Shown here: piece by piece, positions 1,086 to 41,703 of the stretch
Numbering within the stretch: position 1 is the stretch's first letter
How the letters are laid out: every line of letters begins with the position of its first letter
Origin: an uncultured Prochlorococcus sp.
GTDB taxonomy: Bacteria > Cyanobacteriota > Cyanobacteriia > PCC-6307 > Cyanobiaceae
Assembly (NCBI RefSeq): GCF_902616385.1
Contig: NZ_CACMSM010000002.1
Coordinates: forward strand, 1 to 64,000
Direction: 5' to 3'
DNA: 64,000 nucleotides
Translations under genes and position numbers: made by a program
Notes under the pieces: generated by a model
What the model saw: the letters and a program-made list of their open reading frames with translations, nothing else
Told to the model about the DNA's origin: nothing
Database searches by the model: none

Positions 1086-2402
1086 TTAATTTACAAGCTT
1101 ATCTGATTTTCTTAAACAATTTCTAAAATGATTAATTTTAATTTCTAAAGTCGATTCAAAATTGAGTGGTTTTTCGTTCCAACTCTCAATATTTATTTGA
1201 GAGCAAATTTCTGCATCTTCCTTAAATATTTGTAAGTTTGTTTCAGAAACACTTTTATAAAAACATTTCAGTGATTCATCATATTTTTTATTATTTGGCT
1301 CCATACACCAAAGCTTGGTTAAGCAAATTGTTGAATCTAATTTAGGACTTGGTTGATAAAGTTGATGCGCAAATGTTGTGGCTTCTGTAGAAGAAATCAT
1401 ACTAAAGGGAAATAAGTAAAGAGACCAATAACCTTCAAAATCGAATTTAATTTTTAACATTTTTTCAAAAAGTCGTTTTGTTTTTTTTAATTTGCTTGAT
1501 TTTATTTTGTCGTGAAATATTGATGCCCAATCGTATAATTTATTTTGTCCATTACTAATCCCAAGTGGAGCAAGAGTATTTTTATGTACCATAGAAATAT
1601 GATAGGGTTCTAGAGCATTTTCAATAGCAATTTTCCAGTTTGAATCAAATACTATATCTTGAGAAGAGTAATTTTGATAAATGGATTCTCCAATTAGGCA
1701 AATTATTTGGAAAACCTCATCGCCAAGTTGTTCTTGTATACTAAAAAGCGGTTTGTAAGAAATAAAAATTAAACCATTAATGTTTCTTATTTTCCATTCT
1801 TTTGGCCTTGCGTCGTTAATTAATTTTTCATCTTTAAATGTATCTTTTCTAGGGATAAATGCTTTATCAGGCGTAAAAGTCCATCCATGATAAGGACATG
1901 TGATTTTTGAATTTCCTCTATTAGTATTAAAAAACTTTGTGCCTCTATGAGGGCAAGAGTTCTCAATGGCCCACAAATTTCCTTTATAGTTGTGAATTAT
2001 TATTTCTAAATTAAAAAATTTCACTATTTGATATGAATTTTTTTCTTTAAAATCTGCTTCATGACCAATGCAATGCCAGTAGGAAAGAACCATAGCTTTT
2101 TCATTTAAAACAAGATTTTTTTGAAAATATTCATGGTTAAATTTCATATATAAATTGTCAATTCTCATATCATATTCATCTTTATAGCTTTCTTTTTTAT
2201 CTAATAAATTCTTATTTTTTAAATCCCTTAATTCCTTTTTTATTTTTTCTTCTATTTCCTTTTTCATAGAAAATGATTCTGACTTGTTATTGGACAATTT
2301 TCTAACAATAGAAGTTGTTTTAAGTTCTTTTCTCAATTCTCTAGGAACTGCAACTTGCAGATAATATCCCTTCCTATTTTTTCTTTGAAAAATTCGACCC
2401 AA
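1086..2402 (-). CDS. Rieske [2Fe-2S] oxygenase alpha-subunit-like protein with an integrase-like N-terminal extension
   Basis: The 438-residue frame contains a Rieske motif, C150-x-H152 then C169-x2-H172, in the context SCPHRG and CPYHGW. A ring-hydroxylating-oxygenase-like catalytic half follows, with an EPYHISMVHK stretch as in the mononuclear-iron histidine region. Such enzymes use a reductase to hydroxylate or demethylate small organic substrates. The first ~65 residues do not belong to the family: they resemble the N-terminal arm domain of tyrosine integrases. The frame opens with TTG at 2402. An internal ATG at 2168 (MRIDNLYM) gives a normal 360-residue Rieske protein and may be the real start. 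The 2OG oxygenase-like gene lies 160 bases upstream on the same strand. The substrate is unknown. Confidence 0.8.
   Translation of the reverse strand: MGRIFQRKNRKGYYLQVAVPRELRKELKTTSIVRKLSNNKSESFSMKKEIEEKIKKELRDLKNKNLLDKKESYKDEYDMRIDNLYMKFNHEYFQKNLVLNEKAMVLSYWHCIGHEADFKEKNSYQIVKFFNLEIIIHNYKGNLWAIENSCPHRGTKFFNTNRGNSKITCPYHGWTFTPDKAFIPRKDTFKDEKLINDARPKEWKIRNINGLIFISYKPLFSIQEQLGDEVFQIICLIGESIYQNYSSQDIVFDSNWKIAIENALEPYHISMVHKNTLAPLGISNGQNKLYDWASIFHDKIKSSKLKKTKRLFEKMLKIKFDFEGYWSLYLFPFSMISSTEATTFAHQLYQPSPKLDSTICLTKLWCMEPNNKKYDESLKCFYKSVSETNLQIFKEDAEICSQINIESWNEKPLNFESTLEIKINHFRNCLRKSDKLVN
2169..2402 (-). pseudogene. Tyrosine integrase N-terminal fragment, in frame with the Rieske gene
   Basis: Codons 1-78 of the Rieske frame read GRIFQRKNRKGYYLQV, then VPRELRKELKTT and IVRKLSNN, ending in a Lys/Glu-rich helix. 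The order 'xxYxxxVPxxLRxxL, then IxRSLxT, then a charged helix' is the arm-binding N-terminal pattern of phage-type integrases. No core-binding domain or catalytic R-H-R-Y region follows, so an intact integrase is absent. An ATG at 2428 on the same strand would join this frame if one base were added near 2403, which suggests a decayed start. This is pattern recognition by eye only. Confidence 0.55.
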
Positions 2403-2562: not shown

Positions 2563-3414
2563 TTAATCGATGTTGTTATTTTCATGAAGTCGAAATTCAA
2601 GAGAGATTCTAGTCTCATCATCATTATTATTAACACCTAATCCATGAATAAGATGTGAAGAAAAAAGTAGCATTTCTCCTTCTTTTGGATAAATAAGTTT
2701 CATAGAGGAATCCCCATTCCAGGATTTTATGCAGTTTACTGAATAATTTTGGCCTTCTAGAGTTGATCCGCACCTTGTCCTTAAAATTAAGTCTTCATTA
2801 AGTAAATGAGTTTTTGGAGCGATAGGTAGTCCTGTTTTTTTATTTACACCACAAATTGGTATCCAAGAATTAACCATTTGTGGAGCGAATCCATTCATAT
2901 CAAATTCTTCATAAATATCTTTATGAGCAGGATTAAATCCCTTTGAATATGGAGGATTAATTCGGACTATAACCCAGTGAACAAAATCACTATTGTTTGG
3001 ACTAAAGCTTAATTTTTTTTGGATTGCATTTTCTATAAATTTAATAATTTTTTGATCTGGGAATTCATCTTTAGTAAAGTAAAGTCTCTTAGCACGCTTG
3101 CTTATTTCAAGATGTTGAGAATGATTTTTAATATATTTATGGTACTTATTTAGCTCGAAATTACTTAAATCAATTTTGGGTGAAACTTCTGAAATTATTT
3201 TTATTATGATATTCCTTAGTAATTTCTTTATTAAATTAATATCAATATATTTAGTAAAATCTAAAATCGTATAACCTTCATCATACCAATCGCAATCTTT
3301 GCATATATCATTAAATTTCTGACTAAGACAAACTTTTTCACCATAAAAGAAATGAGTATCTTCAGGAGCTTCAAAAACTATTTCTTCATTATTAATGTAG
3401 TATGGTAATTTCAT
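2563..3414 (-). CDS. Fe(II)/2-oxoglutarate-dependent oxygenase-like protein
   Basis: A 283-residue protein with a plausible facial triad: H164-x-D166 in NPAHKDIYEE, H257 in SSHLIHGLG and R269 in ETRISLEFR for the 2-oxoglutarate carboxylate. This spacing fits a phytanoyl-CoA-dioxygenase-like or related double-stranded beta-helix enzyme. The reaction would be hydroxylation of an unknown substrate. It lies upstream of the Rieske gene on the same strand, so the two oxidative enzymes may be co-transcribed. It is divergent from the KAS/ACP module across 288 AT-rich bases, so hydroxylation of that module's acyl product is conceivable but unproven. Confidence 0.65.
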   Translation of the reverse strand: MKLPYYINNEEIVFEAPEDTHFFYGEKVCLSQKFNDICKDCDWYDEGYTILDFTKYIDINLIKKLLRNIIIKIISEVSPKIDLSNFELNKYHKYIKNHSQHLEISKRAKRLYFTKDEFPDQKIIKFIENAIQKKLSFSPNNSDFVHWVIVRINPPYSKGFNPAHKDIYEEFDMNGFAPQMVNSWIPICGVNKKTGLPIAPKTHLLNEDLILRTRCGSTLEGQNYSVNCIKSWNGDSSMKLIYPKEGEMLLFSSHLIHGLGVNNNDDETRISLEFRLHENNNID

Positions 3415-3702: not shown

Positions 3703-4653
3703 ATGCCTAGAATATTGGATATTGCGTCATATTTGCCTGAAAAGGTTATAACCAATGAAGAACTTGCTAATAAATTTGAGAATTGGACCCCTGAAAAGAT
3801 TTTTGAAAAAACTGGTATAAAGTTAAGACATTTTGCGGACGAAAATGAAAATGTCTCGGATATGGGTTTTTTTGCGGCAAAGAAATTATTGGAAAAAACT
3901 AACTTTAATAAGGAAAAAATAGACATGCTTATTCTAGTTACTCAATCACAGGATCAATGTTTGCCTTCTACCTCATGCATGATTCATGAAAAATTAGAAT
4001 TATCTAGTCAATGTGGAAATTTTGATATTAATCAAGGCTGTTCAGGATATATTTATGGTCTCTCGATAGCAAAAAGTTTAATCGCAAGTGGAGAGTTTAA
4101 AAACGTCCTTTTGATTACTGGAGACACTTATTCAAAACTAATAAATCAAAATGAAAGTTCAGTAGCTACATTATTTGGTGATGGAGCCACAGCAACTTTG
4201 ATTGTTCCTGATTATCCTGGAAAAAAAGGAATTGGACCAAGCTATTTTGGAACAGACAGTTCTAAAAAAGATTATTTAATTTGTAATTATTTGGGTTTGA
4301 AAAAACCTACAAAAAATCAAAAACCACTTATGATGAATGGCCCTGGAATCCTAAACTTTACACTAAGCATTTTACCAAAGGAATTGAATATTTATTTGAA
4401 ACAAAATAACCTATTAATAGAAGAATTTGATTTGGTTTTATTCCATCAAGCTAATAAATTTATACTTAAGAGTTTGTATAAAAAAATTGGAATTGAGGAC
4501 AAAGGCATAATTTCATTGGAGAATACTGGTAATACTGTTTCAAGCTCAATTCCAATGGTTTTAGAGACAATTATTCAAGATAATAAAAAAAATGTTCTTC
4601 TAGCTGGTTTTGGGGTCGGCTTGTCTTGGGCATTTACAAGTGTTGTAATATAA
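3703..4653 (+). CDS. 3-oxoacyl-ACP synthase III (FabH-like)
   Basis: A 316-residue KAS III-type condensing enzyme of normal length. The catalytic triad is visible: C113 in INQGCSGYIYG, H248 in LFHQAN and N277 in ENTGNTVSSSIP. The family condenses an acyl-CoA primer with malonyl-ACP. It is the first gene of a plus-strand run with its own ACP 20 bases downstream and a second KAS III after that. This points to a dedicated acyl product, not housekeeping fatty acid synthesis. The start is the ATG at 3703; the upstream 288 bases are very AT-rich and presumably hold the promoter. Confidence 0.9.
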   Translation: MPRILDIASYLPEKVITNEELANKFENWTPEKIFEKTGIKLRHFADENENVSDMGFFAAKKLLEKTNFNKEKIDMLILVTQSQDQCLPSTSCMIHEKLELSSQCGNFDINQGCSGYIYGLSIAKSLIASGEFKNVLLITGDTYSKLINQNESSVATLFGDGATATLIVPDYPGKKGIGPSYFGTDSSKKDYLICNYLGLKKPTKNQKPLMMNGPGILNFTLSILPKELNIYLKQNNLLIEEFDLVLFHQANKFILKSLYKKIGIEDKGIISLENTGNTVSSSIPMVLETIIQDNKKNVLLAGFGVGLSWAFTSVVI

Positions 4654-4673
4654 AAATAATGCTAATTTAGATT

Positions 4674-4910
4674 ATGGTTCCTGAAGGCAAAATAAATAAT
4701 TTCTTAGAGAATTTGGCAGAGGCATTAGAACTACAAGCAGAATGTTTATCTAAAGATACAAAATTAGATTCTATTAGTTGGGATTCTCTTGCGGTTATAA
4801 GTTGTATAGCACTTGCTGATGAATTTTTTGGTGTAATGTTATCTGGTGAAGAGCTATCTAAAGCAATTACTATAGAGGATATAATTAACTTAATTTTAGA
4901 AAAAGTTTGA
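4674..4910 (+). CDS. Dedicated acyl carrier protein
   Basis: A 78-residue acidic protein of typical ACP size. The phosphopantetheine attachment serine is S38 in SWDSLA, at the start of helix II, preceded by a helix I and followed by the EFFGV stretch. It differs from housekeeping AcpP, which usually reads GADSLD, and resembles the stand-alone carrier proteins of polysaccharide and secondary-metabolite loci. It sits between two KAS III genes, 20 bases after the first and 13 before the second. The Sfp-type transferase at 12167 is a likely activator. Confidence 0.88.
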   Translation: MVPEGKINNFLENLAEALELQAECLSKDTKLDSISWDSLAVISCIALADEFFGVMLSGEELSKAITIEDIINLILEKV

Positions 4911-4923
4911 GTTTAAATATCTG

Positions 4924-5910
4924 ATGCAAAGCTCAATAAAAACTTCCAACAAAATTGATATTGCTGGAGTGGTTTCCTGTTTACCTAATAGGAAAATTCT
5001 CAATTTTGATTTTCAGGATTCATTTACTAAAGAAGAAATAGAAAAAGTTTGTAATTCTATTGGTGTTAACTCTAGATTTCATGTCAAAGAAGAAGTAAAT
5101 ACTTCAGATTTATGTTTAGCAGCTGCTAAGCATTTAATTGAGAAACTTAGATGGGAAATTAATAGTATTGATGGCATAATTCTTTTAACACAGACACCTG
5201 ATTTTCAGTTGCCAGCATCTGCTTTTAGACTTCATAAGTTGCTAGGGCTAAAATTAGAAACTTTTGCTTTTGATATCAATTTAGGATGTTCCGCATATCC
5301 TTATGGACTTTGGTTGGCAAGTTCATTAATGAATACAGGGCCTAAAAGAGTAATCCTTTTAGCCGGGGACACTATCAGCAAAATCGTAAGTCCAAAAGAT
5401 AGATCTACGGCATTGCTTTTTGGTGATGCAGGAAGCGCAACCGCTATTGAAACATCTAGCAAAAATAATTGGAAATTTTCTTTGGGTTCAGATGGAAGCG
5501 GGATGGATAATATTAAAACAGATTTTGGAGGATGCTTGAATATGAATGGTTCAAAAATCTTTGAGTTTACATTATCCAAAATACCAGATTTAATAAAGAA
5601 TATTGATGAGGCAAATTCAAAACCTCATGATATTTATTTTTTCCATCAGGCAAATTCTTTTATGCTGAACTTTATTAGAAAAAAATGTAAAATATTGGAA
5701 GAAGCTTTTCCTATAAATATAAGTGAGTTTGGCAATACAAGTAGTGCCTCTATTCCCTTATTAATGACAGATTATTTTCTGAAAAATAAAATCAAAAAAA
5801 AGATAAATGCAGCATTAGTAGGATTTGGCGTTGGTTATTCATGGGCGGCAGCATCTCTAAATATAAAAAACTCTACTTTTTTTGATAAAATCTTTTTAAT
5901 GGATACATAA
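4924..5910 (+). CDS. Second 3-oxoacyl-ACP synthase III-like enzyme
   Basis: A 328-residue KAS III paralogue with a complete triad: C122 in INLGCSAYPYG, H241 in FFHQAN and N271 in EFGNTSSASIP. It aligns by eye with the gene at 3703, so both are probably active. The pair may have different primers, act in successive condensations, or one may act as an acyltransferase, as some KAS III homologues do. It ends two bases before the TTG start of the SDR gene, which indicates tight co-expression. Confidence 0.88.
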   Translation: MQSSIKTSNKIDIAGVVSCLPNRKILNFDFQDSFTKEEIEKVCNSIGVNSRFHVKEEVNTSDLCLAAAKHLIEKLRWEINSIDGIILLTQTPDFQLPASAFRLHKLLGLKLETFAFDINLGCSAYPYGLWLASSLMNTGPKRVILLAGDTISKIVSPKDRSTALLFGDAGSATAIETSSKNNWKFSLGSDGSGMDNIKTDFGGCLNMNGSKIFEFTLSKIPDLIKNIDEANSKPHDIYFFHQANSFMLNFIRKKCKILEEAFPINISEFGNTSSASIPLLMTDYFLKNKIKKKINAALVGFGVGYSWAAASLNIKNSTFFDKIFLMDT

Positions 5911-5912
5911 AC

Positions 5913-6680
5913 TTGGATATTTTTAAAGAAAATGCTCTTTTAAATAAAAATATCCTTATTACTGGAGCAAGCTCAGGAATAGGAGCTAATGCTTGTAAGT
6001 TATTTTCTTTATGCGGAGCAAGAACAATTTTATTAGGGAGAAATGAAGAAAAACTAAAACAGGTTATTTCAAATCTAAATGATGCTTATACTCATGCTTA
6101 CATAATATCTGACTTATCTTCAGAGGACTCAGCATATAATACAATTAAATCTTTGAAAACTGATTTTTTGCCATTGGATGGGATTTTTCATGCAGCTGGA
6201 TCTGAATTAGTAAAACCAATAAATTTAACTAAAACTAGAGATTTAAACTTTGTTTTTAATTCGTCTGTAGGGGGCGCTCTTAGTTTAAGTAGAGCTATAT
6301 CTAAAAGGGGGATAATGAAGGATGGTGGCTCTGTAATATTTATGTCCTCAGTCGCAGCAATCTCAGGAACTGCGGGTTTAAGTGCATATTCTGCAGGAAA
6401 AGCGGCAATTGGCGGTTTATTAAAATCATTGGCTATGGAATTTGCCAATAGAAAAATAAGGTTTAATTCAATAATATCAGGAGCTATTGAATCCCCTATG
6501 CATGAGAGACTTATCAAGAATATGTCAAAAAAGAGTATTGAAGAATATAGGGCAAAACACCCCTTTGGTTTTGGAAGCCTATCAGATATATCTAATTTAG
6601 CTGTATTTCTTATGAGTGATGCAAGTAAATGGATAACTGGCTCAGAGATAGTTATTGATGGTGGCTATACAGTTAGTTAA
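5913..6680 (+). CDS. Short-chain dehydrogenase/reductase, probable 3-oxoacyl-ACP reductase
   Basis: A 255-residue classical SDR. The NAD(P)-binding motif TGASSGIG is at residues 18-25, the catalytic serine is in MSSVAA near 145-146, and Y159-x3-K163 lies in AYSAGKAA. The C-terminal ITGSEIVIDGGYT block is typical of FabG-like enzymes. The start is TTG at 5913, two bases after the preceding stop, with no better ATG. Its place after two KAS III enzymes and an ACP suggests it reduces the beta-keto acyl-ACP to a 3-hydroxyacyl-ACP. A nucleotide-sugar reductase role cannot be excluded. Confidence 0.85.
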   Translation: MDIFKENALLNKNILITGASSGIGANACKLFSLCGARTILLGRNEEKLKQVISNLNDAYTHAYIISDLSSEDSAYNTIKSLKTDFLPLDGIFHAAGSELVKPINLTKTRDLNFVFNSSVGGALSLSRAISKRGIMKDGGSVIFMSSVAAISGTAGLSAYSAGKAAIGGLLKSLAMEFANRKIRFNSIISGAIESPMHERLIKNMSKKSIEEYRAKHPFGFGSLSDISNLAVFLMSDASKWITGSEIVIDGGYTVS

Positions 6681-6736
6681 AAATATTGAAATTAAAAAAA
6701 TTTTATTTAAGATTAAATAATAATAATTTTTAAGTA

Positions 6737-7381
6737 TTGGAAAGTAATAAAGAGAGGATAATAATAGTTGGAGGGGGCTCATTAGCTATTGAATTGATTT
6801 CATGGATCTTAAACTCAGATATTTTTGACAATATTGAGAAAAGATTATTTTTTATAGACGATTTTATTTCCGAAGATATTAACCTTGACAGTATAAAAGT
6901 AAAATTTTTAGGAAAAATAAAAGATATTATTCCAAAAGATGATGATAAATTTTACTTAGGTATAGCTAATCCTTTAAAAAAATCAGAAATAGTGAAAATT
7001 TTAGATGAGAAAAAAGTAAATTTCTGCACATTTATTCACCCAAGTGCAATAATTTCAAACACTACTAAGATAGGTAAAGGGTGTGTAATCTTTCCATTTA
7101 GTATTTGTTCATCTAATAGTAATTTGCAGAACTTTATTACTATAAACGTACATACCGCAGTTGGTCACGATGTTGGTATAGGTCCTTTTACTACTTTAAG
7201 TTCATTTGTTGATGTCACAGGTAAAGTTCAATTAGGTGAAAAAGTTATGGTTGGTTCTGGGGCAAGGTTCCTGCCTTCTATTAAAATAGGAGATAACTGT
7301 ACAATTGGAGCAGGAGCTACTGTTTATCATTCTGTTCCTAATGGGAAGACAGCTTATTGTAAACCTGCTAAGTTAATATAA
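6737..7381 (+). CDS. NeuD/PglD-family sugar O- or N-acyltransferase
   Basis: A 214-residue protein with an N-terminal Rossmann-like PglD_N half (IIIVGGGSLAIELI) and a C-terminal left-handed beta-helix of hexapeptide repeats (IGKGCV, VGHDVGIGPF, LGEKVMVGSGA, IGDNCTIGAGATV). Relatives acetylate sialic acid or the C4 amine of UDP-4-amino sugars. The start is TTG at 6737. It is the last gene of the KAS/ACP/SDR run, which makes it the natural candidate for transferring the acyl group to a sugar. Whether the donor is acyl-ACP or acetyl-CoA cannot be told from sequence. Confidence 0.85.
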   Translation: MESNKERIIIVGGGSLAIELISWILNSDIFDNIEKRLFFIDDFISEDINLDSIKVKFLGKIKDIIPKDDDKFYLGIANPLKKSEIVKILDEKKVNFCTFIHPSAIISNTTKIGKGCVIFPFSICSSNSNLQNFITINVHTAVGHDVGIGPFTTLSSFVDVTGKVQLGEKVMVGSGARFLPSIKIGDNCTIGAGATVYHSVPNGKTAYCKPAKLI

Positions 7382-11517: not shown

Positions 11518-12156
11518 ATGAATAAAAAAGGAATTAATAAATTAAAAATTAAAATATATCCTGAATTTAAAAAAAATTCCGATTTTATATTTGCATTGTT
11601 TTTGATTTTTCTTCTAAGCCCATTATTACTAATCTTATCTTTTTTGGTGTATTTAAATTTTGGTACTCCAATAATTTTTTCGCAAAAGAGACTTGGTTTT
11701 AAAAATAAAATTTTTACTATTTACAAATTTAGATCAATGAATGATAAATATGATAAAAATGGTTTGTTGCTACCAGATAACTTAAGAATAACTAAATTTG
11801 GATCGTGGTTAAGGAGTTCCTCTATGGATGAATTGCCAGAATTATTTAATATTCTTAGAGGAGAAATGAGCATTGTAGGGCCAAGACCATTTATTTCTAA
11901 ATACAAAAAATTTTATAATAAAGAGGAATTAAGGAGACATAATGTAAGGCCTGGCATTACAGGTTTAGCACAAATAAAAGGTAGAAATTTATTATCATGG
12001 GAAGAAAAATTTCACTTTGATATTATTTATGTAGATAATTACAACTTAATTTTAGATTTGAAGATTATGTTTAAGACAATTCTTAAGGTATTTAATAGTG
12101 AAGGAATATCTTCAAGAAATCTTTCTCAAAATCAAGAATTTAAAAGGGATCTTTGA
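11518..12156 (+). CDS. Initiating sugar-phosphate transferase (PglC/WcaJ-type bacterial sugar transferase)
   Basis: A 212-residue monotopic phosphoglycosyl transferase. One N-terminal hydrophobic helix is followed by the family blocks KRLG-KNKIFTIYKFRSM, DELPELFNILRGEMSIVGPRP and RPGITGLAQIKGRN. The Asp-Glu pair in DELPEL is the catalytic dyad. It moves a sugar-1-phosphate from a UDP-sugar to undecaprenyl phosphate and so starts a repeat unit. The short length matches PglC rather than the longer WbaP/WcaJ. The phosphopantetheinyl transferase follows after 10 bases. A second, WecA-type initiator lies at 56982. Confidence 0.9.
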   Translation: MNKKGINKLKIKIYPEFKKNSDFIFALFLIFLLSPLLLILSFLVYLNFGTPIIFSQKRLGFKNKIFTIYKFRSMNDKYDKNGLLLPDNLRITKFGSWLRSSSMDELPELFNILRGEMSIVGPRPFISKYKKFYNKEELRRHNVRPGITGLAQIKGRNLLSWEEKFHFDIIYVDNYNLILDLKIMFKTILKVFNSEGISSRNLSQNQEFKRDL

Positions 12157-12166
12157 ATTTTGATAA

Positions 12167-12844
12167 ATGTCAACCACAGAAAATTCTGATAATAATTTTT
12201 TCTTAAAAAAATTTGATATATGCTTATCTCTTTTTACTTCATTAAATCCTAATAGTTATGAAGTTACAAAAGAGGAAAATTATTTTTCTGAAAACTTATC
12301 TTTGAGAAGAAAGATCGAATATTTAACTTCAAGAACTTACTTAAGACAATTTTTATCCTTGATATTTGATATTGAGCCTTTAAAGATACCTCTATATTCT
12401 CCTCCAGCTAAACCACCTCAATTGAAAAATGGTTTTGGTTACGTAAGTCTAAGTCATAGTAAAAATGGATTTTTGGTAGGATGGTCTAGTCTTCCAATTG
12501 GAGTAGATATTGAGCAAAGATATAGAAAGTTTAATGAATTTTCTATTATACAGAAATTATTTTCTGAAGAAGAGAAATCTTTGCTTAAGAAATTTTCAAA
12601 AGAAAAATTAAGAGATAAATGTTTGGATTTATGGGTCATTAAAGAAGCATCCATAAAATTGCAGCGAGGGAGTATATTTGAGGATTTTAAACAATGGAGA
12701 TATGATGATGATGAGAAAACAGTTTCAAACTTAATAAATGGAGAAAAAAAAAGTATAAATAATTTTAATTTTAATGAATTTAAAATTGCAGTAGCTTACG
12801 ATTTAAATATCAATAAGGAAAAAATTATACTTTGTTATCATTAA
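12167..12844 (+). CDS. 4'-phosphopantetheinyl transferase (Sfp family)
   Basis: A 225-residue Sfp-type enzyme. Visible motifs are SLSHS at residues 94-98, GVDIE at 112-116 with the Mg-binding Asp and Glu, and W156-x2-KEA at 159-161. The size is typical for Sfp-type enzymes, about twice that of AcpS. It transfers phosphopantetheine from CoA to a carrier-protein serine. The only carrier protein seen in the window is the ACP at 4674. In cyanobacteria a single such enzyme may serve the whole cell, so this could be the housekeeping copy or one dedicated to the island. Confidence 0.88.
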   Translation: MSTTENSDNNFFLKKFDICLSLFTSLNPNSYEVTKEENYFSENLSLRRKIEYLTSRTYLRQFLSLIFDIEPLKIPLYSPPAKPPQLKNGFGYVSLSHSKNGFLVGWSSLPIGVDIEQRYRKFNEFSIIQKLFSEEEKSLLKKFSKEKLRDKCLDLWVIKEASIKLQRGSIFEDFKQWRYDDDEKTVSNLINGEKKSINNFNFNEFKIAVAYDLNINKEKIILCYH

Positions 12845-12912: not shown

Positions 12913-13602
12913 ATGGATCTTGAAGATAAAATTAGAGAGTCTTATCATTGTAAAAAGTTTTCTTATTCAACCCAAAAATATCCATTTAAAAATTTAGTTG
13001 AGGAAATTTTTGGAGTACCTCTGGGTGATCTTCATAAATGGATTGGAGAATATAATGTTTTCAATAGAGATAATGATCAGAATACTATTCTACATAAAGT
13101 CTTTTACTCTAATTTCAATAATAAATTGAAAGAAATTTATAATGATTTTATAAATAATCAGGTTAAAGAATACTTAAAAGAGGATTTTTATTATCAAAAA
13201 ATACCTACTTTTAGAGTTGGTTTGCCAGGTAACAAGTTTGTAGGGGAGTTTCATAAGGATTCTCAATATAATCATAAGGGTTATGAAATTAATTTCAATT
13301 TAGGTTTATCAAATTATTTAGGTAAGGCGGCTTTAAAAGTTCAAAAGGAAAGGTATAGCAATGATTATATTTATCTAGAATGTCCTTATGGCGAAATTTT
13401 TTCTTTTGATCATATTAATTGTATCCATGGGTCTGAAACAAATGTTACTGACATTACCATGGTTTCTTTTGATTTTAGAATAGCGTTAAAAAGGTTCTAT
13501 TATGACTCAGATGCTAAATCAATAGGTAATCAATCGAGTTTTAATAGAGGATTTTATTTTTCAGATGAACCTGTAAATGCATCCCACAAAAAAAATATTT
13601 AA
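12913..13602 (+). CDS. Fe(II)/2-oxoglutarate oxygenase-like protein (StrG-like)
   Basis: A 229-residue protein with a credible iron site: H114-x-D116 in EFHKDSQYNH, H172 in NCIHGSETN and R189 near DFRIAL. The PTFRVGLPGN strand before the site and the HGSE-N motif recall StrG-like and related oxygenases of sugar and antibiotic clusters. The reaction is probably hydroxylation or oxidation, substrate unknown. The nucleotide-sugar dehydrogenase starts about 10 bases downstream, so it may act on a sugar or its substituent. Confidence 0.6.
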   Translation: MDLEDKIRESYHCKKFSYSTQKYPFKNLVEEIFGVPLGDLHKWIGEYNVFNRDNDQNTILHKVFYSNFNNKLKEIYNDFINNQVKEYLKEDFYYQKIPTFRVGLPGNKFVGEFHKDSQYNHKGYEINFNLGLSNYLGKAALKVQKERYSNDYIYLECPYGEIFSFDHINCIHGSETNVTDITMVSFDFRIALKRFYYDSDAKSIGNQSSFNRGFYFSDEPVNASHKKNI

Positions 13603-16678: not shown

Positions 16679-17884
16679 TTGAGATATCACGAAATGCAAT
16701 TTATAGAAGCTGTTTTCGGACATAGTTTTTGCGACTATTTTTCATGGGGTGACTTAGATATAAATTATGATGTTTTTCTAGAGAATTATTTGCAAAGTAG
16801 AAAAATTAATTCTTTTGATCACTTTTCTAATTTAATGAGTGATTTATGGAAAATATCAATTAATAATTTGGTTACTTCTAATCTAAATAAAAAAGTTTGT
16901 ATCCCATTAAGTGGAGGTTACGATAGCAGGTTAATATTAAATTATTTTTTTGAAGAAAACCAAAATCAAGAAATATTAACCTCAACTTTTGGAATTCGAG
17001 GTTCAAGAGAAATAAAAATAGCAAAAAATATTTCTGAAATTTTTAATGTTTCTCATAAGACAACTTTTATTGAGAAATTTAATTTTTTATCTTTATTAGA
17101 TAATTATTCTGATAATACCAGAAATGGTATAAATTTATTGCATAGAGCATTAAATATTTCTTGCCATAGATCCGATTTTATTTTGAATGGTTTTTTAGCA
17201 AATACTTTAGCTGGTAATCACTTATCAAATATTGAAGAAAAATTTGAAGATGCTTTTGATAGGTATTTAAATACAGAAATTAATGTAAATTTATTAAAAA
17301 CCAATTTCCCTTCCTTCTATAAAAATATAAAAAATAAAGTTGAAAACGCTATTAATGCAAAAGCTTTTGAAAGATTAAATATATCTAATTATGAAAAGAT
17401 AATAATTTCTCAAAGACAAAAAATGCGTATAAAGTTTATTCTTGGTAATGATAAGCATTTTGTACATTCTCCTTTTGCAGATCCTGCAATAGCAGGGCTA
17501 TTGTTAGGATTAAATTCTAGTTATAGAAGTAATCAAGTTTTCTACCAACATTGGGTTAAGAATAAATTCGTAGAGAAAATTCAAAACTTTAGAACCTCCA
17601 AATATATTTATCTTCGGGAAAATTTAATAAATAAAAAATTTAAGCATTTTTTGTATATTTTAATTAAATCTCAAGGAAAATTGCATAACTTATCAGGAGG
17701 ATTAATTTTTCCATATTTTTCAAATTATGGTAGAGATTTGTTTTTGATTTCAAAAAATGAAACTTACAAAAAACTTTTAGAAAAGTTTAATAATAAAGAT
17801 TATTTTTTGATTGCTGAACGTTTAGGTTCAAGGCATTATACTAATCAAAAGATAATTTCTTACAATGTTGGTAGACTATATTGA
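16679..17884 (+). CDS. Asparagine-synthetase-like amide ligase without a glutaminase domain
   Basis: A 401-residue protein with the PP-loop SGGYDSR at 78-84 of an AsnB-type synthetase domain. The N-terminal Ntn glutaminase domain, which begins MCG, is missing. Such proteins activate a carboxylate as an adenylate and join it to ammonia or an amine. In polysaccharide loci they amidate uronic acids; in other loci they make lactams or peptides. The frame opens with TTG at 16679; an ATG at 16694 is an alternative. It overlaps the hydroxylase-like gene by 20 bases. The substrate is unknown. Confidence 0.75.
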   Translation: MRYHEMQFIEAVFGHSFCDYFSWGDLDINYDVFLENYLQSRKINSFDHFSNLMSDLWKISINNLVTSNLNKKVCIPLSGGYDSRLILNYFFEENQNQEILTSTFGIRGSREIKIAKNISEIFNVSHKTTFIEKFNFLSLLDNYSDNTRNGINLLHRALNISCHRSDFILNGFLANTLAGNHLSNIEEKFEDAFDRYLNTEINVNLLKTNFPSFYKNIKNKVENAINAKAFERLNISNYEKIIISQRQKMRIKFILGNDKHFVHSPFADPAIAGLLLGLNSSYRSNQVFYQHWVKNKFVEKIQNFRTSKYIYLRENLINKKFKHFLYILIKSQGKLHNLSGGLIFPYFSNYGRDLFLISKNETYKKLLEKFNNKDYFLIAERLGSRHYTNQKIISYNVGRLY

Positions 17885-18533
17885 TGCTAAAGATGAATTG
17901 AATTTATTAACTAAAGAAATAGAAAAAAAATATTCTTCATTTGATTTTAAAAGACATTTTCGTTTCGATCACCATACAGGTGGATGGTTAGTTTTTAATA
18001 TAAAATCTTTTGATGGCAGTAATCATGGCAAGGCAAGTAGCAAATCTTATAAATATGAGGAAGTAATCAATGAATTACCAAGTACTAAATCTTTTTTAGA
18101 AAAATACTTCCGATCGGCTAGGAGAATAAGATTAATGTCATTAAAAAAAAATAATTCTATTTTTTGGCATTATGACAGCTTAGAGAGTGCTGATTTTGGG
18201 ATCTCCAGGATACATATACCTATTAAAAGCTCTCATAAAATAATTACTAGAATATTTACTAATGCTTCATCATGGAAACCATATAGAATTTATTATGGAG
18301 ATTTCTCTTTCCCGCATAGAGTTGATAACTTAAGTAAAGATGATTGGTTGCATTTGGTTATCGATTATGAGGGTGACATTCACCCTTTTTTTAGAAAAAG
18401 TTATATTTTTAAACCAAAATTTATGATTCTAAGAAAATTTCTTAGAAAAATTATTCAATTTATTTGTGATTTCTATTGCATGCATAGAGGCATTAAAGAT
18501 ATTAAAAGATTTATTAAAATTTATTTTCTGTAA
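17865..18533 (+). CDS. Aspartyl/asparaginyl beta-hydroxylase-like protein
   Basis: A 222-residue protein with H102-x-D104 in FWHYDSLESAD, R115-I-H117-I-P119, then PHRVDNLSKDDWLHLVIDYEG with H151, N155, H163 and D167. This order matches the Asp/Asn beta-hydroxylase family (PF05118), an Fe(II)/2OG oxygenase fold. The ATG at 17865 lies 20 bases inside the preceding synthetase gene, so the two are tightly coupled. The target may be a small amide or amino acid made by that partner instead of a protein. The hydrophobic C-terminus is extra. Confidence 0.7.
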   Translation: MLVDYIDAKDELNLLTKEIEKKYSSFDFKRHFRFDHHTGGWLVFNIKSFDGSNHGKASSKSYKYEEVINELPSTKSFLEKYFRSARRIRLMSLKKNNSIFWHYDSLESADFGISRIHIPIKSSHKIITRIFTNASSWKPYRIYYGDFSFPHRVDNLSKDDWLHLVIDYEGDIHPFFRKSYIFKPKFMILRKFLRKIIQFICDFYCMHRGIKDIKRFIKIYFL

Positions 18534-21465: not shown

Positions 21466-22644
21466 ATGCCAAAGCAAATACCACTTTTTAAAGTTTTTAT
21501 GTCTGAAGAAGCTCCTTTAGAGGCTTCAAAAGTACTTCAGTCTGGATACATTGGCCAAGGTCCTATTGTTGAAAAATTTGAATATTCATTAAAAAACTTT
21601 TTTGGCAATCAAAACATTGTTACTACAAATTCGGCAACATCTGCAGAACATTTGATCCTACATATGCTGAGGAAAGACAATAGAGAAATGGTTCGGGGAA
21701 AACATTTATATAGTTGGCCTGGTATTAATGAGGAAGATGAGATTCTTACCTCTCCCTTAACATGTACTGCAACAAATTGGCCTATTATCTTAAATAACTA
21801 CAAAATTAAATGGGTTGATGTTGAACCTAATTCTTGCAATATTGATCTTAAAGATTTAGAAAGAAAAATTTCAATAAAAACTAAAATAATAGTCTTAGTT
21901 CATTGGGGTGGTAATCCTGTTGATCTTGATAAATTATCAATTATTCTTGATAAGTCTGAGAAAAAATTTGGTTTTCGACCCCTAGTTATTGAAGATTGCG
22001 CTCATGCCTTCGGAAGTATTTATAATAATGCACTTATCGGAACACATGGAAATTTTGCTACTTTTAGTTTTCAAGCTATAAAGCATTTAACTTCTGTAGA
22101 TGGAGGTTGCATGATATTACCAAATGAGAATCTTGTTAAAAGAGCTAAATTGTTACGGTGGTATGGAATTGATAGAGAGCAGAATAGAAAAGATTTTAGA
22201 TGTGAAGAGGATGTATCAGAGGCGGGATTTAAAATGCATTTGAATGATGTTAACGCTGCTGTTGGTTTGGCAAATTTAAACCATGTTATTAATAAAGTAA
22301 TACCTCTTCATAGAAATAACGCTTCATTTTATAAGGAAAGACTTGCTGATTTAGGGGGTATAAATTTATCAAATGAAATAGAAAATTCAGAAAGCAGTTA
22401 TTGGCTTTTTACGTTATTTGTCGAAGAACAACAAAAGTTTATTGAATGTCTTACGAAGCAAGGAATTCAAGTTAGTAGAGTTCATGAAAGAAATGATATT
22501 CATTCATGCGTTGATCAATATAAAACTGATCTTCCAGGCGTAAATCAGGCTGTCAGTAAAATGGTTTGTATCCCCGTTGGGTGGTGGGTTTCTGAAGAAG
22601 ATAGAAATTATATTTTAGATACTATTAAATCCGGTTGGATTTAA
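21466..22644 (+). CDS. DegT/DnrJ/EryC1/StrS family sugar aminotransferase
   Basis: A 392-residue PLP enzyme. The Schiff-base lysine is K206 in SFQAIKHLTSVDGG and the pyridine-binding aspartate is D177 in IEDCAHAFG. The N-terminal GYIGQGPIVEKFE and SATSAEHL blocks are standard for the family. It transfers an amino group from glutamate to a keto-sugar nucleotide. A DNREMVRGKHLYSWPGINEEDE insert after SATSAEHL is longer than usual. A 4-keto sugar from RmlB or the CapD-type dehydratase is a possible substrate, but C3 or C4 specificity cannot be read. Confidence 0.85.
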   Translation: MPKQIPLFKVFMSEEAPLEASKVLQSGYIGQGPIVEKFEYSLKNFFGNQNIVTTNSATSAEHLILHMLRKDNREMVRGKHLYSWPGINEEDEILTSPLTCTATNWPIILNNYKIKWVDVEPNSCNIDLKDLERKISIKTKIIVLVHWGGNPVDLDKLSIILDKSEKKFGFRPLVIEDCAHAFGSIYNNALIGTHGNFATFSFQAIKHLTSVDGGCMILPNENLVKRAKLLRWYGIDREQNRKDFRCEEDVSEAGFKMHLNDVNAAVGLANLNHVINKVIPLHRNNASFYKERLADLGGINLSNEIENSESSYWLFTLFVEEQQKFIECLTKQGIQVSRVHERNDIHSCVDQYKTDLPGVNQAVSKMVCIPVGWWVSEEDRNYILDTIKSGWI

Positions 22645-31613: not shown

Positions 31614-32678
31614 TCAAAAGCTTCTTTTTAACATTTCATTACACCATTCTATATTTTGTGCATACCAAAAAATAGTTTTTTTTATGTTTTTTTCGAAAGA
31701 ATTTTTTTCTTCCCAACCAAGTTCCTCTCTTATTTTTTTGGAATTTATAGAGTATCTTCTATCATGTCCAGGCCTATCTTCGACATAAGTTAATAAATCT
31801 ATGTGAGGCGAATGATTTGGATTTATATCATCTAAATGTTTACAAATATTTTTTATAACTTCATAATTACTTTTCTCATTTGAGCCCCCAATACAATATC
31901 TGCTACCTATTTCTCCTTTGCTAGCTACCAAAATAAGTGCATTTATATGATCTTCAACAAATAACCAATCTCTTACATTTTTACCATCTCCATAAAGTGG
32001 AATAAATTCTTTTTTTAAACCTCTTAAAGTTACTAATGGGATTAATTTTTCTGGAAATTGCCAAGGCCCAAAATTATTAGAGCAATTCGTTATTATCACA
32101 GGGAATCCATAAGTATGGAACCAAGCATTAGCTAAATGATCGCTAGAAGCCTTACTAGCAGAGTATGGACTTCTAGGATCATAAGGAGAATTTTCATTAA
32201 AACTTCCTAGTTCCCCAAGCGATCCAAATACCTCATCAGTACTTATGTGTAAAAATCTAAAGTTACTCTTTTCTGAAGAATTTAATGAATCCCAATATTT
32301 AAAACTTGAGTCAATCAAATTGTAAGTTCCAATTATATTATTCTCAATAAAAATTCCTGGGGATTTAATCGAATTATCTACATGACTTTCAGCCGCTAAG
32401 TGAAAAATAAGATCTGGTTTTGCTAATTGAATAGCCTGGTCAATTTTTTCATTTTCTCGAAGATCTAAATTGAAAAATTGATATCTTGATTTCTTTTCAT
32501 TATTTTTTGCAAGGAAATTATTTATTCTGTTGGTGTCACTTGCATAACCTAATTTATCAATGTTAAAAATTCGAGAATTAGTGTTTTGTAGTAAATTTAT
32601 AATTAAGTTGCCTCCTATAAAACCGCATCCCCCAGTGATTAAAATATTTTTACAATAGTCAAAATTTAAGTTATTCAA
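31614..32678 (-). CDS. rfbB: dTDP-glucose 4,6-dehydratase
   Basis: A 354-residue extended SDR. The NAD motif TGGCGFIGGN is at 15-24, the catalytic triplet T147-D148-E149 in STDEVFG, and Y172-x3-K176 in PYSASKASSDH. All residues needed for dehydration of dTDP-glucose to dTDP-4-keto-6-deoxyglucose are present. It is the last gene of the order A-C-B on the minus strand, four bases after rfbC. It converges on wecC with only 13 bases between. Confidence 0.95.
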   Translation of the reverse strand: MNNLNFDYCKNILITGGCGFIGGNLIINLLQNTNSRIFNIDKLGYASDTNRINNFLAKNNEKKSRYQFFNLDLRENEKIDQAIQLAKPDLIFHLAAESHVDNSIKSPGIFIENNIIGTYNLIDSSFKYWDSLNSSEKSNFRFLHISTDEVFGSLGELGSFNENSPYDPRSPYSASKASSDHLANAWFHTYGFPVIITNCSNNFGPWQFPEKLIPLVTLRGLKKEFIPLYGDGKNVRDWLFVEDHINALILVASKGEIGSRYCIGGSNEKSNYEVIKNICKHLDDINPNHSPHIDLLTYVEDRPGHDRRYSINSKKIREELGWEEKNSFEKNIKKTIFWYAQNIEWCNEMLKRSF

Positions 32679-38644: not shown

Positions 38645-39820
38645 ATGATATCTTCATGGCCAAGTTACGATGATGAGCAGATAGAAGCTGTTAATAAGGT
38701 TCTTATTAATGGAAAAGTTAATTATTGGACGGGTTCTGAGACTTCAAATTTTGAAAAGGAATATTGTAATTGGACAAATTCTAAATATGCAGTTGCATTA
38801 TCTAATGGTTCATTAGCCTTAACTGCAGCATATACAGCTCTTGGGATAGGCCCAGGAGACGAGATAATTACAACTCCTAGAACATTTATTGCGACTACAT
38901 CCTGTTTCGTTTTATTGGGGGCAAAACCTGTATTTGCTGATGTTAATAGAAACTCAGGGTTGATTACTGTCGATACAATTGAACCATTAATAAATAATAA
39001 AACAAAGGCTATTGTCGTTGTTCATTTGGCAGGTTGGCCTGCAAACATGGTTGAAATTTGTAAATTAGCGAAGAAATATAATATTAAGGTTGTAGAAGAT
39101 TGTTCACAAGCACATGGAGCTAAAATATTAGTAGATGATAAATATTGTTCAGTGGGAACATTTGGGGATATATCAACTTGGAGCTTTTGCCAAGATAAAA
39201 TTATAAGTACAGGAGGAGAGGGAGGAATTATTACTACTAATGAAAAAAAAATCTGGGAGAAAGTTTGGTCATTTAAAGATCATGGTAAGTCATACTATAA
39301 TGTTTTCTCTAAAAAACATCCTACTGGTTATAGATGGTTACATGATAATTTCGGTACAAATTTTCGTCTTACAGAAATGCAAAGTGCCATAGGTAGAATT
39401 CAGCTTAAAAAAGTTGATTCTTGGCATAAAATTAGAGTTAGAAATGCAATGATAATTAAAGATAAATTGAGTAAATTAAAATTGGTAAGAATCCCAATGC
39501 CAACTCAATCATATATTCATGCATGGTATAAATTTTATGTATATCTTGATAATTCTTTTTTAAAAAATGGATGGGATAGAAATAGAATAATAGAAGAAAT
39601 AAACAAAAGAAAATATCCTGCATTTCATGGAGGCTGTGGAGAGATTTATTTAGAGAAATGTTTTCAAGACAGTGGACTAGCCCCAAAAAAAAGATTACCA
39701 ATTGCTAAGGATTTATCAGAAAATAGTATTATGTTTTTAGTTCATCCAACAATCAAATTAGAAGAAATTAATTCATATGCTGAAGTAATAAAGGAAGTCC
39801 TTGAAATGGCACAAAAGTGA
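38645..39820 (+). CDS. DegT-type sugar aminotransferase (PglE-like)
   Basis: A 391-residue PLP enzyme. D152 in VEDCSQAHGA binds the pyridine ring and K185 in FCQDKIISTGGEGG forms the Schiff base. It starts a new run 98 bases after the glycosyltransferase and is followed after eight bases by a UDP-HexNAc 4,6-dehydratase. That pairing mirrors PglE/PglF, which make UDP-4-amino-4,6-dideoxy-GlcNAc. The amino sugar could then be acylated by the NeuD/PglD-type protein at 6737. Confidence 0.88.
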   Translation: MISSWPSYDDEQIEAVNKVLINGKVNYWTGSETSNFEKEYCNWTNSKYAVALSNGSLALTAAYTALGIGPGDEIITTPRTFIATTSCFVLLGAKPVFADVNRNSGLITVDTIEPLINNKTKAIVVVHLAGWPANMVEICKLAKKYNIKVVEDCSQAHGAKILVDDKYCSVGTFGDISTWSFCQDKIISTGGEGGIITTNEKKIWEKVWSFKDHGKSYYNVFSKKHPTGYRWLHDNFGTNFRLTEMQSAIGRIQLKKVDSWHKIRVRNAMIIKDKLSKLKLVRIPMPTQSYIHAWYKFYVYLDNSFLKNGWDRNRIIEEINKRKYPAFHGGCGEIYLEKCFQDSGLAPKKRLPIAKDLSENSIMFLVHPTIKLEEINSYAEVIKEVLEMAQK

Positions 39821-39828
39821 ATTAATTA

Positions 39829-41703
39829 ATGATTAATAATAAAAATTTTAATAAATATAAAATTTTATTTAGAATAAGAAACTTTGTCTCTAAATTTAGA
39901 AGCTACTTTAATATATTAATTGAATTTTTTAATATAATTATTGCTACTTCTTTTACCATATGGTTGAAATTTAATACTATAGATTTCTATGATAATTCTT
40001 TTAATGAATTTTTACTTTTATTAGTTTTAATTATAGGTATCGGAATTCCTCTTTATAGTAGAACTGGACAAAATAAGGTTTTAAGTCTCTACCTTTCAAG
40101 CAATTCTCTCTATCAAATTTTTGCTAGGAATGCACTGCTTATTTCCTTTATTTATTTTCTGAATTTTTATTTAAGATTTGAATTTCTTGATATTCAGTTT
40201 TCTATTCTGTTGTGGATATCATTATCTACTTTAACTTGTATAACTAAGGTAATGATAAAAGATATTTTAAGATATATAAAAAGTTTGGAATTTAAAAATT
40301 ATAAATCTGTTGTTATTTATGGTGCAGGTTCTGCCGGTGCTCAATTAGCTGCTCAACTAAGAAATTCTACTGAATATAAAGTAAAGTTTTTTATTGATGA
40401 TTCAGAATATTTGTTAGATAGAAGAATTTATAATATTCCAATTTTTTCTCCAGATATACTAAAAAAAGGATACTTTAAAATTGATGAAATTTTACTTGCA
40501 ATACCATCTTTAACAATAAATGAAAGATCCACTATTTTAGAAAAATTATCACCATATCAAATAAAAGTTCTTCAGATACCATCCATTGAGGAATTGTCCA
40601 GAGGGAATAAAAAAATAGATTCTTTTAGACCTGTAAAAATAGAAGACTTGCTTGGAAGAAAAATAGTTAGACCAAAAACAAGTTTGTTAAAAAATGCCAT
40701 ATCCAATGGTGTTGTTTGCGTTACAGGTGCTGGAGGGTCTATTGGTAGTGAATTATCTAGACAAATATTAAAATTAAGTCCTAAAAAACTTATCCTTTTA
40801 GAGCAAAATGAATTTAATCTATATTCTATAAAAAATCAAATGGATAAACTAAATCATAAGAAATTAACTATCATTACTGCTTTAGGAAGTGCAAATGACA
40901 AAAACTTTTTAAAAAAACTGCTTAGTTTTCATAAGGTTAATATCATCTTTCATGCAGCAGCATATAAGCATGTTCCACTTGTAGAGGAAAATCCTCTTCA
41001 AGGAATTTTAAATAATGTTTTTTCAACCAAAACCATTTGTGATGTAGCAATACATTTGAATATTCAGAAAGTGATTTTGATTTCTAGCGATAAAGCTGTG
41101 AGACCAACAAATGTGATGGGAGCAACTAAAAGATTATCTGAAATTATTTTTCTTTATTATGACTCTAAAAAACTTGGACTTACAAAGTTTTCGATGGTTC
41201 GATTTGGGAATGTTTTAGGTTCTTCTGGTTCTGTTATTCCTCTATTCCAAAAGCAAATTGATGAAGGAGGGCCATTAACCCTCACACATCCAAAAGTAAA
41301 TAGATATTTCATGACAATACCAGAAGCAGCAGAGTTAGTTTTACAATCTGCTGCGATTAGTAAAGGTGGAGAGATTTTTCTACTAGACATGGGAAAACCT
41401 GTTTTAATTAAATCTTTAGCAGAGAAATTAATTAAACTAAATGGTAAAACTATAATTGACAAAAATAACCCTGAAGGTGATATTGAGATTGTTGACGTAG
41501 GACTAAGACCTGGAGAAAAATTATATGAGGAATTACTCATAGATGGAGAAGCTTCACAAACTATTAATCCATTAATTTTTAAAGCAAATGAGAAATTCTC
41601 AATGTTATTAGATTTTGAAAAAAAACTCGATGAATTGTTAGATGCAGTAAAATCACAAAATAAATCTAAATCATTGGAAATATTAAAATTTATGGTTAAA
41701 TAA
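39829..41703 (+). CDS. Membrane-bound UDP-HexNAc 4,6-dehydratase (CapD/WbpM/PglF family)
   Basis: A 624-residue protein. About four N-terminal membrane helices (residues 25-140) lead to a CoA-binding-like Rossmann domain (GAGSAGAQLAAQ, 165-176) and a catalytic SDR domain (TGAGGSIGSE, 299-308). The active site SSDKAVRPTNVMGATKR has S420, M430 and K434, the S-M-K triad of this family in place of the usual Tyr. It removes water from UDP-GlcNAc to give UDP-4-keto-6-deoxy sugars. The adjacent aminotransferase is the expected next enzyme. Confidence 0.92.
   Translation: MINNKNFNKYKILFRIRNFVSKFRSYFNILIEFFNIIIATSFTIWLKFNTIDFYDNSFNEFLLLLVLIIGIGIPLYSRTGQNKVLSLYLSSNSLYQIFARNALLISFIYFLNFYLRFEFLDIQFSILLWISLSTLTCITKVMIKDILRYIKSLEFKNYKSVVIYGAGSAGAQLAAQLRNSTEYKVKFFIDDSEYLLDRRIYNIPIFSPDILKKGYFKIDEILLAIPSLTINERSTILEKLSPYQIKVLQIPSIEELSRGNKKIDSFRPVKIEDLLGRKIVRPKTSLLKNAISNGVVCVTGAGGSIGSELSRQILKLSPKKLILLEQNEFNLYSIKNQMDKLNHKKLTIITALGSANDKNFLKKLLSFHKVNIIFHAAAYKHVPLVEENPLQGILNNVFSTKTICDVAIHLNIQKVILISSDKAVRPTNVMGATKRLSEIIFLYYDSKKLGLTKFSMVRFGNVLGSSGSVIPLFQKQIDEGGPLTLTHPKVNRYFMTIPEAAELVLQSAAISKGGEIFLLDMGKPVLIKSLAEKLIKLNGKTIIDKNNPEGDIEIVDVGLRPGEKLYEELLIDGEASQTINPLIFKANEKFSMLLDFEKKLDELLDAVKSQNKSKSLEILKFMVK

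Follow-up and report, generated by a model that had tools for sequence, protein, structure and literature searches.

A module of five genes for predicted amino sugar acylation in the surface-glycan island of an uncultured Prochlorococcus

Gene sets in which ketoacyl-acyl carrier protein synthases (KASs), an acyl carrier protein (ACP), a reductase, and an acyltransferase are connected with an acylated amino sugar have been described in other bacteria, and the current study concerns such a set in a surface-glycan island of an uncultured Prochlorococcus sp. (NCBI RefSeq assembly GCF_902616385.1, contig NZ_CACMSM010000002.1, positions 1 to 64,000; these 64,000 nucleotides are referred to as the window). 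In Flavobacterium psychrophilum, wfpC and wfpE are predicted to encode ketoacyl-ACP synthases, wfpD an ACP, wfpF a reductase, and wfpG a PglD homologue; a 3,5-dihydroxyhexanoyl group, determined by nuclear magnetic resonance, was assigned to wfpC-wfpG, and pglE and pglF to the sugar UDP-Qui2NAc4N (Cisar et al. 2019, PMC6519341). The viosamine island of Pseudomonas syringae comprises seven open reading frames (ORFs), i.e., vioA, vioM, vioT, vioS, vioB, vioR, and acp, of which vioS, vioR, acp, and vioB have been linked to N-(3-hydroxybutyryl)viosamine; the acylated sugar is missing in a vioR mutant (Yamamoto et al. 2011, PMC3927599). The 3,5-dihydroxyhexanoyl group has also been reported in Vibrio cholerae, namely in O3 (PMC3210612) and in O3 and O100 (PMC8074265), and according to a review, 3-hydroxybutanoic acids are the most abundant of such groups (PMC10609480).

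Compared by description, F. psychrophilum wfpC-wfpG and the window have in common two different KASs, an ACP, a ketoreductase, and a PglD homologue, together with PglE and PglF at the same locus. The window differs in its host, a picocyanobacterium, in the distance of 31 kb between the module and the sugar genes within a large island, and, as far as the main text of the F. psychrophilum paper shows, in the presence of a Rieske oxygenase and a phosphopantetheinyl transferase (PPTase); the terms Rieske, oxygenase, hydroxylase, and phosphopantetheinyl are absent from that text (PMC6519341). The P. syringae island and the glycosylation island of Pseudomonas aeruginosa PAK resemble the window in combining a KASIII, an ACP, a reductase, and an acyltransferase on a 4-amino-4,6-dideoxy sugar, but the P. 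syringae island has a single KAS, a dTDP-viosamine acceptor, and a flagellin glycan as its target (PMC3927599). Judged by its genes, the window does not belong to this viosamine type with VioA, a single KAS, and a flagellar link; its two aminotransferases are at best 25-26% identical to VioA of Burkholderia glumae, and a search of 57 window proteins gave no FliD homologue. A flagellar-island cluster of Burkholderia and Paraburkholderia (L023, L040, L042, L043, and L049) with the order vioA-KAS-ACP-KAS-SDR-acetyltransferase-Rieske, in which SDR denotes a short-chain dehydrogenase/reductase, shares the order of the five genes and the Rieske gene with the window and differs in its flagellar context and VioA. 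In B. glumae, which gave the closest named hit among the plasmids searched, the gene order is fliD, fliT, TPR protein, vioA, KAS, ACP, second KAS, SDR, acetyltransferase, and Rieske, and its proteins are 37-49% identical to those of the window for the five module genes and 29% for the Rieske oxygenase. No description of this cluster was found in the literature listings searched, of which only part was read in the papers themselves. In the B. glumae pBGF3 record, the second KAS is frameshifted and no gene is listed there (L023 7001-8021).

The kind of module is thus already known from F. psychrophilum and P. syringae. An earlier note on this DNA, which knew of no described system with this gene set in marine picocyanobacteria, has to be corrected insofar as the same five occur in wfpC-wfpG (PMC6519341); for marine picocyanobacteria including Prochlorococcus, no description of the module was found in the literature, judged by titles and abstracts, and this part is not contradicted. 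As far as the literature searches show, four aspects are new: this lineage as a host, the Rieske oxygenase as a partner, a PPTase dedicated to the module, and a second, resident PPTase gene that is apparently decaying. The five genes lie head to tail on the + strand with intergenic gaps of 20, 13, 2, and 56 bases (5' to 3'):

3703..4653, + strand: KASIII-1 (KAS1 clade), 316 amino acids (aa), proposed first condensing enzyme (Pfam/NCBIfam, tree, and alignment)
4674..4910, + strand: dedicated ACP, 78 aa, with WDSL serine (Pfam PP-binding)
4924..5910, + strand: KASIII-2 (KAS2 clade), 328 aa, proposed second condensing enzyme (Pfam/NCBIfam, tree, and alignment)
5913..6680, + strand: FabG-like SDR, 255 aa, TTG start, proposed 3-ketoacyl-ACP reductase of both rounds (Pfam/NCBIfam and motifs)
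6737..7381, + strand: PglD/NeuD-type left-handed beta-helix N-acyltransferase, 214 aa, TTG start (hexapeptide/NeuD_NnaD; Asp-Asp pair and catalytic His kept)

The presence of five tightly spaced KASIII, ACP, KASIII, SDR, and PglD/NeuD-type genes in a glycan island, with intact Cys-His-Asn triads in both KASs and the attachment serine in the ACP, was confirmed by ORFs, Pfam/NCBIfam models, and alignments. Both KASs score above their Pfam cut-offs and below the FabH model TIGR00747 (234.8 for KAS1 and 173.7 for KAS2; cut-off of 292.1), and the broad model NF006829 is passed by KAS1 (260.7 versus 249) and failed by KAS2 (211.3). The ACP passes the Pfam PP-binding cut-off narrowly (21.1 versus 20.8 bits), and the acyltransferase falls 1.2 bits short of the NeuD/PglD/VioB model TIGR03570 (159.6 versus 160.8 bits). 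The FabG-like reductase has the SDR motifs (Ser, YxxxK, and TGxxSGIG) and remains below the cut-off of the FabG equivalog TIGR01830 (131.2 versus 297.75). The Cys-His-Asn triad is common to all 132 aligned KASIII rows including the two of the window, the ACP serine lies within WDSL, and the acyltransferase has both the PglD-type catalytic His and the nucleotide-binding Asp pair, whose roles are taken from PMC8040287. When the window is compared with G500, another genome of its genus, dN amounts to 0.27-0.39 and dS, which is near saturation, to 1.37-1.76 for the five genes and the Rieske gene; dN/dS is well below 1, and all five module genes are intact and constrained.

The set extends beyond the five genes delimited in the earlier note, since a Rieske oxygenase, a PPTase, and a PglE/PglF pair have to be added. 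The partners and a transferase that may act downstream are:

1086..2402, - strand: Rieske non-haem oxygenase, proposed sixth component, which would oxidise the acyl group or the sugar (Pfam, motifs, and co-occurrence)
11518..12156, + strand: small sugar-1-phosphate transferase, similar in size to PglC, candidate for the transfer of the acylated sugar onto the lipid carrier (homologues in 19/80 related neighbourhoods)
12167..12844, + strand: Sfp-type 4'-phosphopantetheinyl transferase, island copy, proposed loader of the module ACP (Pfam PF01648)
38645..39820, + strand: DegT/PglE-type aminotransferase (best solved relative Pcryo_0638, 438.5 bits)
39829..41703, + strand: PglF/WbpM-type 4,6-dehydratase, 624 aa, PF02719 (best solved relative Campylobacter jejuni WlaL)

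Since the window carries PglF- and PglE-type genes, the acceptor is likely UDP-2-acetamido-4-amino-2,4,6-trideoxyglucose (UDP-QuiNAc4N), which would be made by these two island homologues. WlaL of C. jejuni is taken here to be PglF, and Pcryo_0638 forms UDP-QuiNAc4N (PMC8040287). In G500, the PglE-type and PglF-type genes lie side by side on the contig of the module, the aminotransferase being 59% identical to that of the window. Among the seven genomes of the genus in which a KAS cassette was found, only that of the window (G000) and G500 have this PglE-type aminotransferase with more than 39% identity; it occurs in 27 of 400 genomes of the family, including both module carriers (the chance of both belonging to these 27 is about 0.004).

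The interpretation of the earlier note, according to which a glycan island encodes a dedicated ACP whose acyl chain is passed on to an amino sugar, is right in outline, and the transfer of an ACP-borne chain to an amino sugar is highly probable. In its full form, the module is on balance best explained as a small iterative type II synthase with its own ACP, from which a short hydroxyacyl chain would be transferred to a 4-amino-4,6-dideoxy sugar nucleotide at its 4-amino group; UDP-QuiNAc4N is the most likely acceptor. The island PPTase would arm the ACP, and one KAS would join a C2 starter and a malonyl unit to acetoacetyl-ACP, which the SDR would reduce to 3-hydroxybutyryl-ACP. The second KAS would extend the latter to 5-hydroxy-3-oxohexanoyl-ACP, a second reduction by the SDR would yield 3,5-dihydroxyhexanoyl-ACP, and the PglD-like enzyme would form the amide on the sugar. 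Both hydroxyls should stay in place, because the five genes include neither a dehydratase nor an enoyl reductase; the Rieske oxygenase would add a further oxidation, to which its presence in this system points. The systems of F. psychrophilum and P. syringae suggest a rule of one condensation per KAS without dehydration, according to which one KAS would give C4 and two would give C6. The two KASs of the window are therefore more likely to mean a C6 chain than the hydroxybutyryl group suggested in the earlier note, which goes with the single KAS of P. syringae (PMC3927599), and a C6 dihydroxy chain or an oxidised derivative thereof is slightly favored over other products. For a named gene set, the locus thus yields a concrete chemical prediction, namely bacillosamine that is 4-N-acylated by a C6 hydroxyacyl group, and the rule itself is testable across many phyla. 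In marine picocyanobacteria, surface glycans are believed to play a part in the recognition by phages and grazers, and only few of their structures have been established.

The two KASs represent two lineages. In a quick maximum-likelihood tree of 132 KASIII rows (SH-aLRT supports only; 7 of 129 KAS stretches, i.e., cut, over-long, or fragmentary ORFs, were dropped beforehand, and the later-fetched KASs of G500, G447, and G505 are outside the tree), the KAS1 clade comprises 42 rows (SH-aLRT of 98) and the KAS2 clade 87 rows (SH-aLRT of 94); a long-branched row, L066_K2, stands outside both. Both KASs are on the tree for 18 of the 21 loci with the order KAS-ACP-KAS-SDR, and in 17 of these 18 one falls into each clade. 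The counterparts from Amylibacter marinus group with the window KASs with supports of 91 and 89, neither of them starred, on long branches and with a flagged letter make-up of the window rows; this grouping of both KASs would be consistent with, and is not proof of, a module that moves as a unit. By plain identity, Nostoc is nearest to the window KAS2 (47%). The positions of Trp32, Arg36, and Arg249 of Escherichia coli FabH, which we take to be CoA and ACP binding sites, are changed in all 130 rows outside the two FabH rows, and these changes suggest a different substrate or partner ACP. A separate FabH that keeps the compared E. coli residues is encoded elsewhere in the genome.

To see how widely the arrangement recurs, named genomes were scanned with an alignment of KAS2 type. 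The scan covers the best 80 of 209 loci and favours KAS2-like proteins, so that the following counts are frequencies among KAS2 relatives and not among all bacteria. Gene content was determined by tblastn with queries from the window, B. glumae, and a few others. The search for the exact order KAS-ACP-KAS-SDR-acyltransferase, which the earlier note had suggested, recovered it in G500 and in 12 of the 80 loci, some of them flagellar, with Paraburkholderia, Massilia, Undibacterium, a Comamonadaceae bacterium, Nostoc (one locus), and A. marinus as hosts. KAS-ACP-KAS-SDR is present in 21/80 loci, 15 of them with a Rieske gene, 17 with an acyltransferase, and 17 with an aminotransferase; irrespective of order, at least two KASs occur with an ACP, an SDR, and an acyltransferase in 28/80. 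Further partners among the 80 loci are the Rieske oxygenase (46), an aminotransferase (35), an initiating sugar transferase (19), a PglF-type dehydratase (12), and FliD (4). At one locus (L044), the initiating transferase, all five module genes, Rieske, aminotransferase, and dehydratase form a single run. When viral contigs were searched with a single protein, none of the 53 stretches matched proved to be a relative. With an alignment as query, one contig labelled viral was found (L113, IMG/VR), which has a KAS2 relative with matches to ACP, SDR, VioA-like, and TPR proteins nearby; it may be a virus or a misassigned bacterial contig.

Within the family, the complete module was found in two genomes, that of the window and G500. 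All five genes are present in order in G500, 56-63% identical to those of the window, together with a divergent Rieske gene (61%). The sample of 400 family genomes was searched with KAS1, not with KAS2 alone, and a relative at an E value of 1e-45 or better occurs in five genomes, that of the window included. A KAS2 search of 149 relatives, 90 of them from the same genus, gave, from the genus, only G025, G029, and G057 above the level of the housekeeping FabH, and the three KASs concerned all belong to the KAS1 clade. Shorter cassettes have the composition KAS-ACP (G025 and G447), KAS-ACP-SDR (G029), or ACP-KAS-SDR (G057 and G505), and judging from them it looks as if acyl modules were swapped within the island. 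The gene adjoining the KAS-ACP cassettes of G025 and G447 has no Pfam match. Around the shorter KAS-ACP cassettes of L027, L028, L029, L127, and L128, a PPTase is accompanied by neighbours without Pfam match; a provisional label "GNAT-like" was withdrawn for five such proteins, which are left unclassified.

Several observations weigh against the proposed pathway. With only two described chemistries behind it, a rule that relates chain length to the number of KASs has a narrow foundation, and the roles of wfpC-wfpG are themselves predictions (PMC6519341). Other gene combinations are found in many of the 80 relatives, and L085 shows the order KAS-ACP-KAS-SDR with all its KASs in a single clade. 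The starter use of the window KASs is uncertain, because they lack the presumed CoA- and ACP-binding residues of FabH. With respect to the acceptor, the PglE/PglF pair lies at a distance from the module, though in the same island, the aminotransferase also occurs in 25/400 family genomes outside the two with the full module, and the PglF-type gene is non-discriminating, being present in six of the seven cassette genomes (43-47% in the five besides that of the window). The Asp-Asp pair of the acyltransferase was considered as a discriminator between UDP and dTDP sugars and is only weakly informative, since it is found in 9/9 PglE/PglF-type and also in 6/13 VioA-type loci (33 of 36 loci kept, with ORFs of less than 180 aa dropped). 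Finally, two described relatives of the acyltransferase use acetyl-CoA (PMC8040287).

The window could also supply another sugar, dTDP-Qui4N, from three further genes:

21466..22644, + strand: second sugar aminotransferase (best solved relatives 4zwv, 4xau, and CalS13)
31614-32678: rmlB
33302-34177: rmlA

A dTDP-4-amino-4,6-dideoxyglucose acceptor of the viosamine type, with unchanged chain chemistry, would agree with these genes, including the CalS13-like aminotransferase, and with the VioA carried by many relatives. The aminotransferase at 21466 is, however, only 25% identical to VioA of B. glumae, and it is the PglE-type gene that is common to both module genomes and adjoins PglF in each; the dTDP sugar is unlikely. 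A somewhat better, though still minor, chance is assigned to a C4 product, either 3-hydroxybutyryl as in P. syringae or another acetoacetyl-derived C4 group, with a second KAS that gates, loads, or transfers. KASIII-fold proteins with non-extending roles exist (CerJ type), and 3-hydroxybutyryl is the product of the single-KAS island (PMC3927599) and belongs to the most abundant class of such groups according to the review (PMC10609480); yet both window KASs are constrained and retain Cys-His-Asn, and the two-KAS set known from F. psychrophilum is associated with a C6 group (PMC6519341). It is very improbable that the KASs, ACP, and SDR make a free small molecule or lipid without any sugar modification, next to an ordinary N-acetyltransferase that is a neighbour by chance. 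Such a function would suit the 33/80 related neighbourhoods without sugar or flagellar markers and loci that lack an ACP or an adjacent acyltransferase, among them Chryseobacterium L103 and L109, but the order including the acyltransferase is fixed in 12/80 loci and in G500, and a glycosyltransferase was found in each of four marker-free loci sampled (L103, L035, and L066 with 5 proteins each and L076 with 2, i.e., 17 proteins in total and not whole loci). A sugar, initiating-transferase, or flagellar marker is present in the other 47/80 neighbourhoods, and the case named in the earlier note as contrary to its proposal, homologues always in fatty-acid or terpene loci, can be excluded.

The preferred pathway, i.e., a C6 hydroxyacyl group on UDP-QuiNAc4N, would be complemented by the Rieske oxygenase. 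Its Rieske and catalytic domains are above the cut-off, and the motifs CxH...CxxH and His-x4-His, whose roles we assume from general knowledge, are intact. At an E value of 1e-30 or better, the protein occurs in 2/400 family genomes, which are the same two in which the full module was found. An N-terminal extension of about 78 aa (window 2150-2402, - strand; L126 11311-11550) is kept in G500 and absent from five other aligned homologues; it is probably translated, because it is conserved in G500, and its interpretation as a recombination scar was rejected for the same reason. The extension has a weak match below the cut-off (E of 0.002-0.009) to DUF6538, presumably an integrase N-terminal domain. 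A second oxygenase gene separates the Rieske gene from the module:

2563..3414, - strand: PhyH/2OG-Fe(II) oxygenase, link to the module doubtful (Pfam/NCBIfam)

It was rejected as a module member, as neither the 80 neighbourhoods nor the stretch examined in G500 yielded a homologue.

The island PPTase scores 48.6 for PF01648 (gathering cut-off of 25) and stays below the HetI equivalog (33 versus 370). A PPTase accompanies the cassette in all seven KAS-cassette genomes of the genus (G000, G500, G447, G505, G025, G029, and G057), directly adjacent in six and 4.8 kb downstream in the window. The PF01648 search had suggested that the island gene is the only, housekeeping copy of the genome, but a protein search found a second copy missed by the family model (G000:C4:11377-11940, L142). 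This resident PPTase, to which the cassette PPTases are 34-36% identical, is flanked by a MgsA/RarA-type ATPase gene and an AhpC/TSA peroxiredoxin gene. It is open in all ten genus relatives with a single PPTase match (G001-G004 and G007-G012; G012 is cut by the contig end), and no PPTase was found by protein search in G006. Eight genomes have an additional PPTase, i.e., the seven cassette genomes and G005 with two PPTases; the resident gene is broken in G000 (in-frame TGA), G500 (split between frames), G505 (many stops), and G025 (several frames and a TAG), open in G447, G029, and G005, and could not be located in G057 (genome 75% complete). Breaks are thus present in 4/7 genomes with and 0/10 without an additional copy (Fisher p = 0.015, in a small sample of related genomes), and the single stop in G000 is possibly an assembly error. 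This pattern may reflect a displacement of the resident PPTase by the island copy; if the breaks are real, the latter would have to serve the fatty-acid ACP, too. As a tentative and rather doubtful scenario, the island of these picocyanobacteria might house a mobile, self-sufficient acyl-sugar line in which the two KASs determine a C6 chain, the Rieske oxygenase tailors it, and the cassette PPTase arms the ACP; this PPTase would also take over the fatty-acid ACP, with the resident gene decaying and the hypervariable island holding an essential gene of core metabolism. If the replacement is true, it is an example of an essential housekeeping function being taken over by a variable surface island.

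The island also holds an Asp/Arg-hydroxylase-like gene (17865-18533), a protein without Pfam match (12913-13602), and, among the glycan synthesis genes, a heparinase II/III-like protein (35368-37257).

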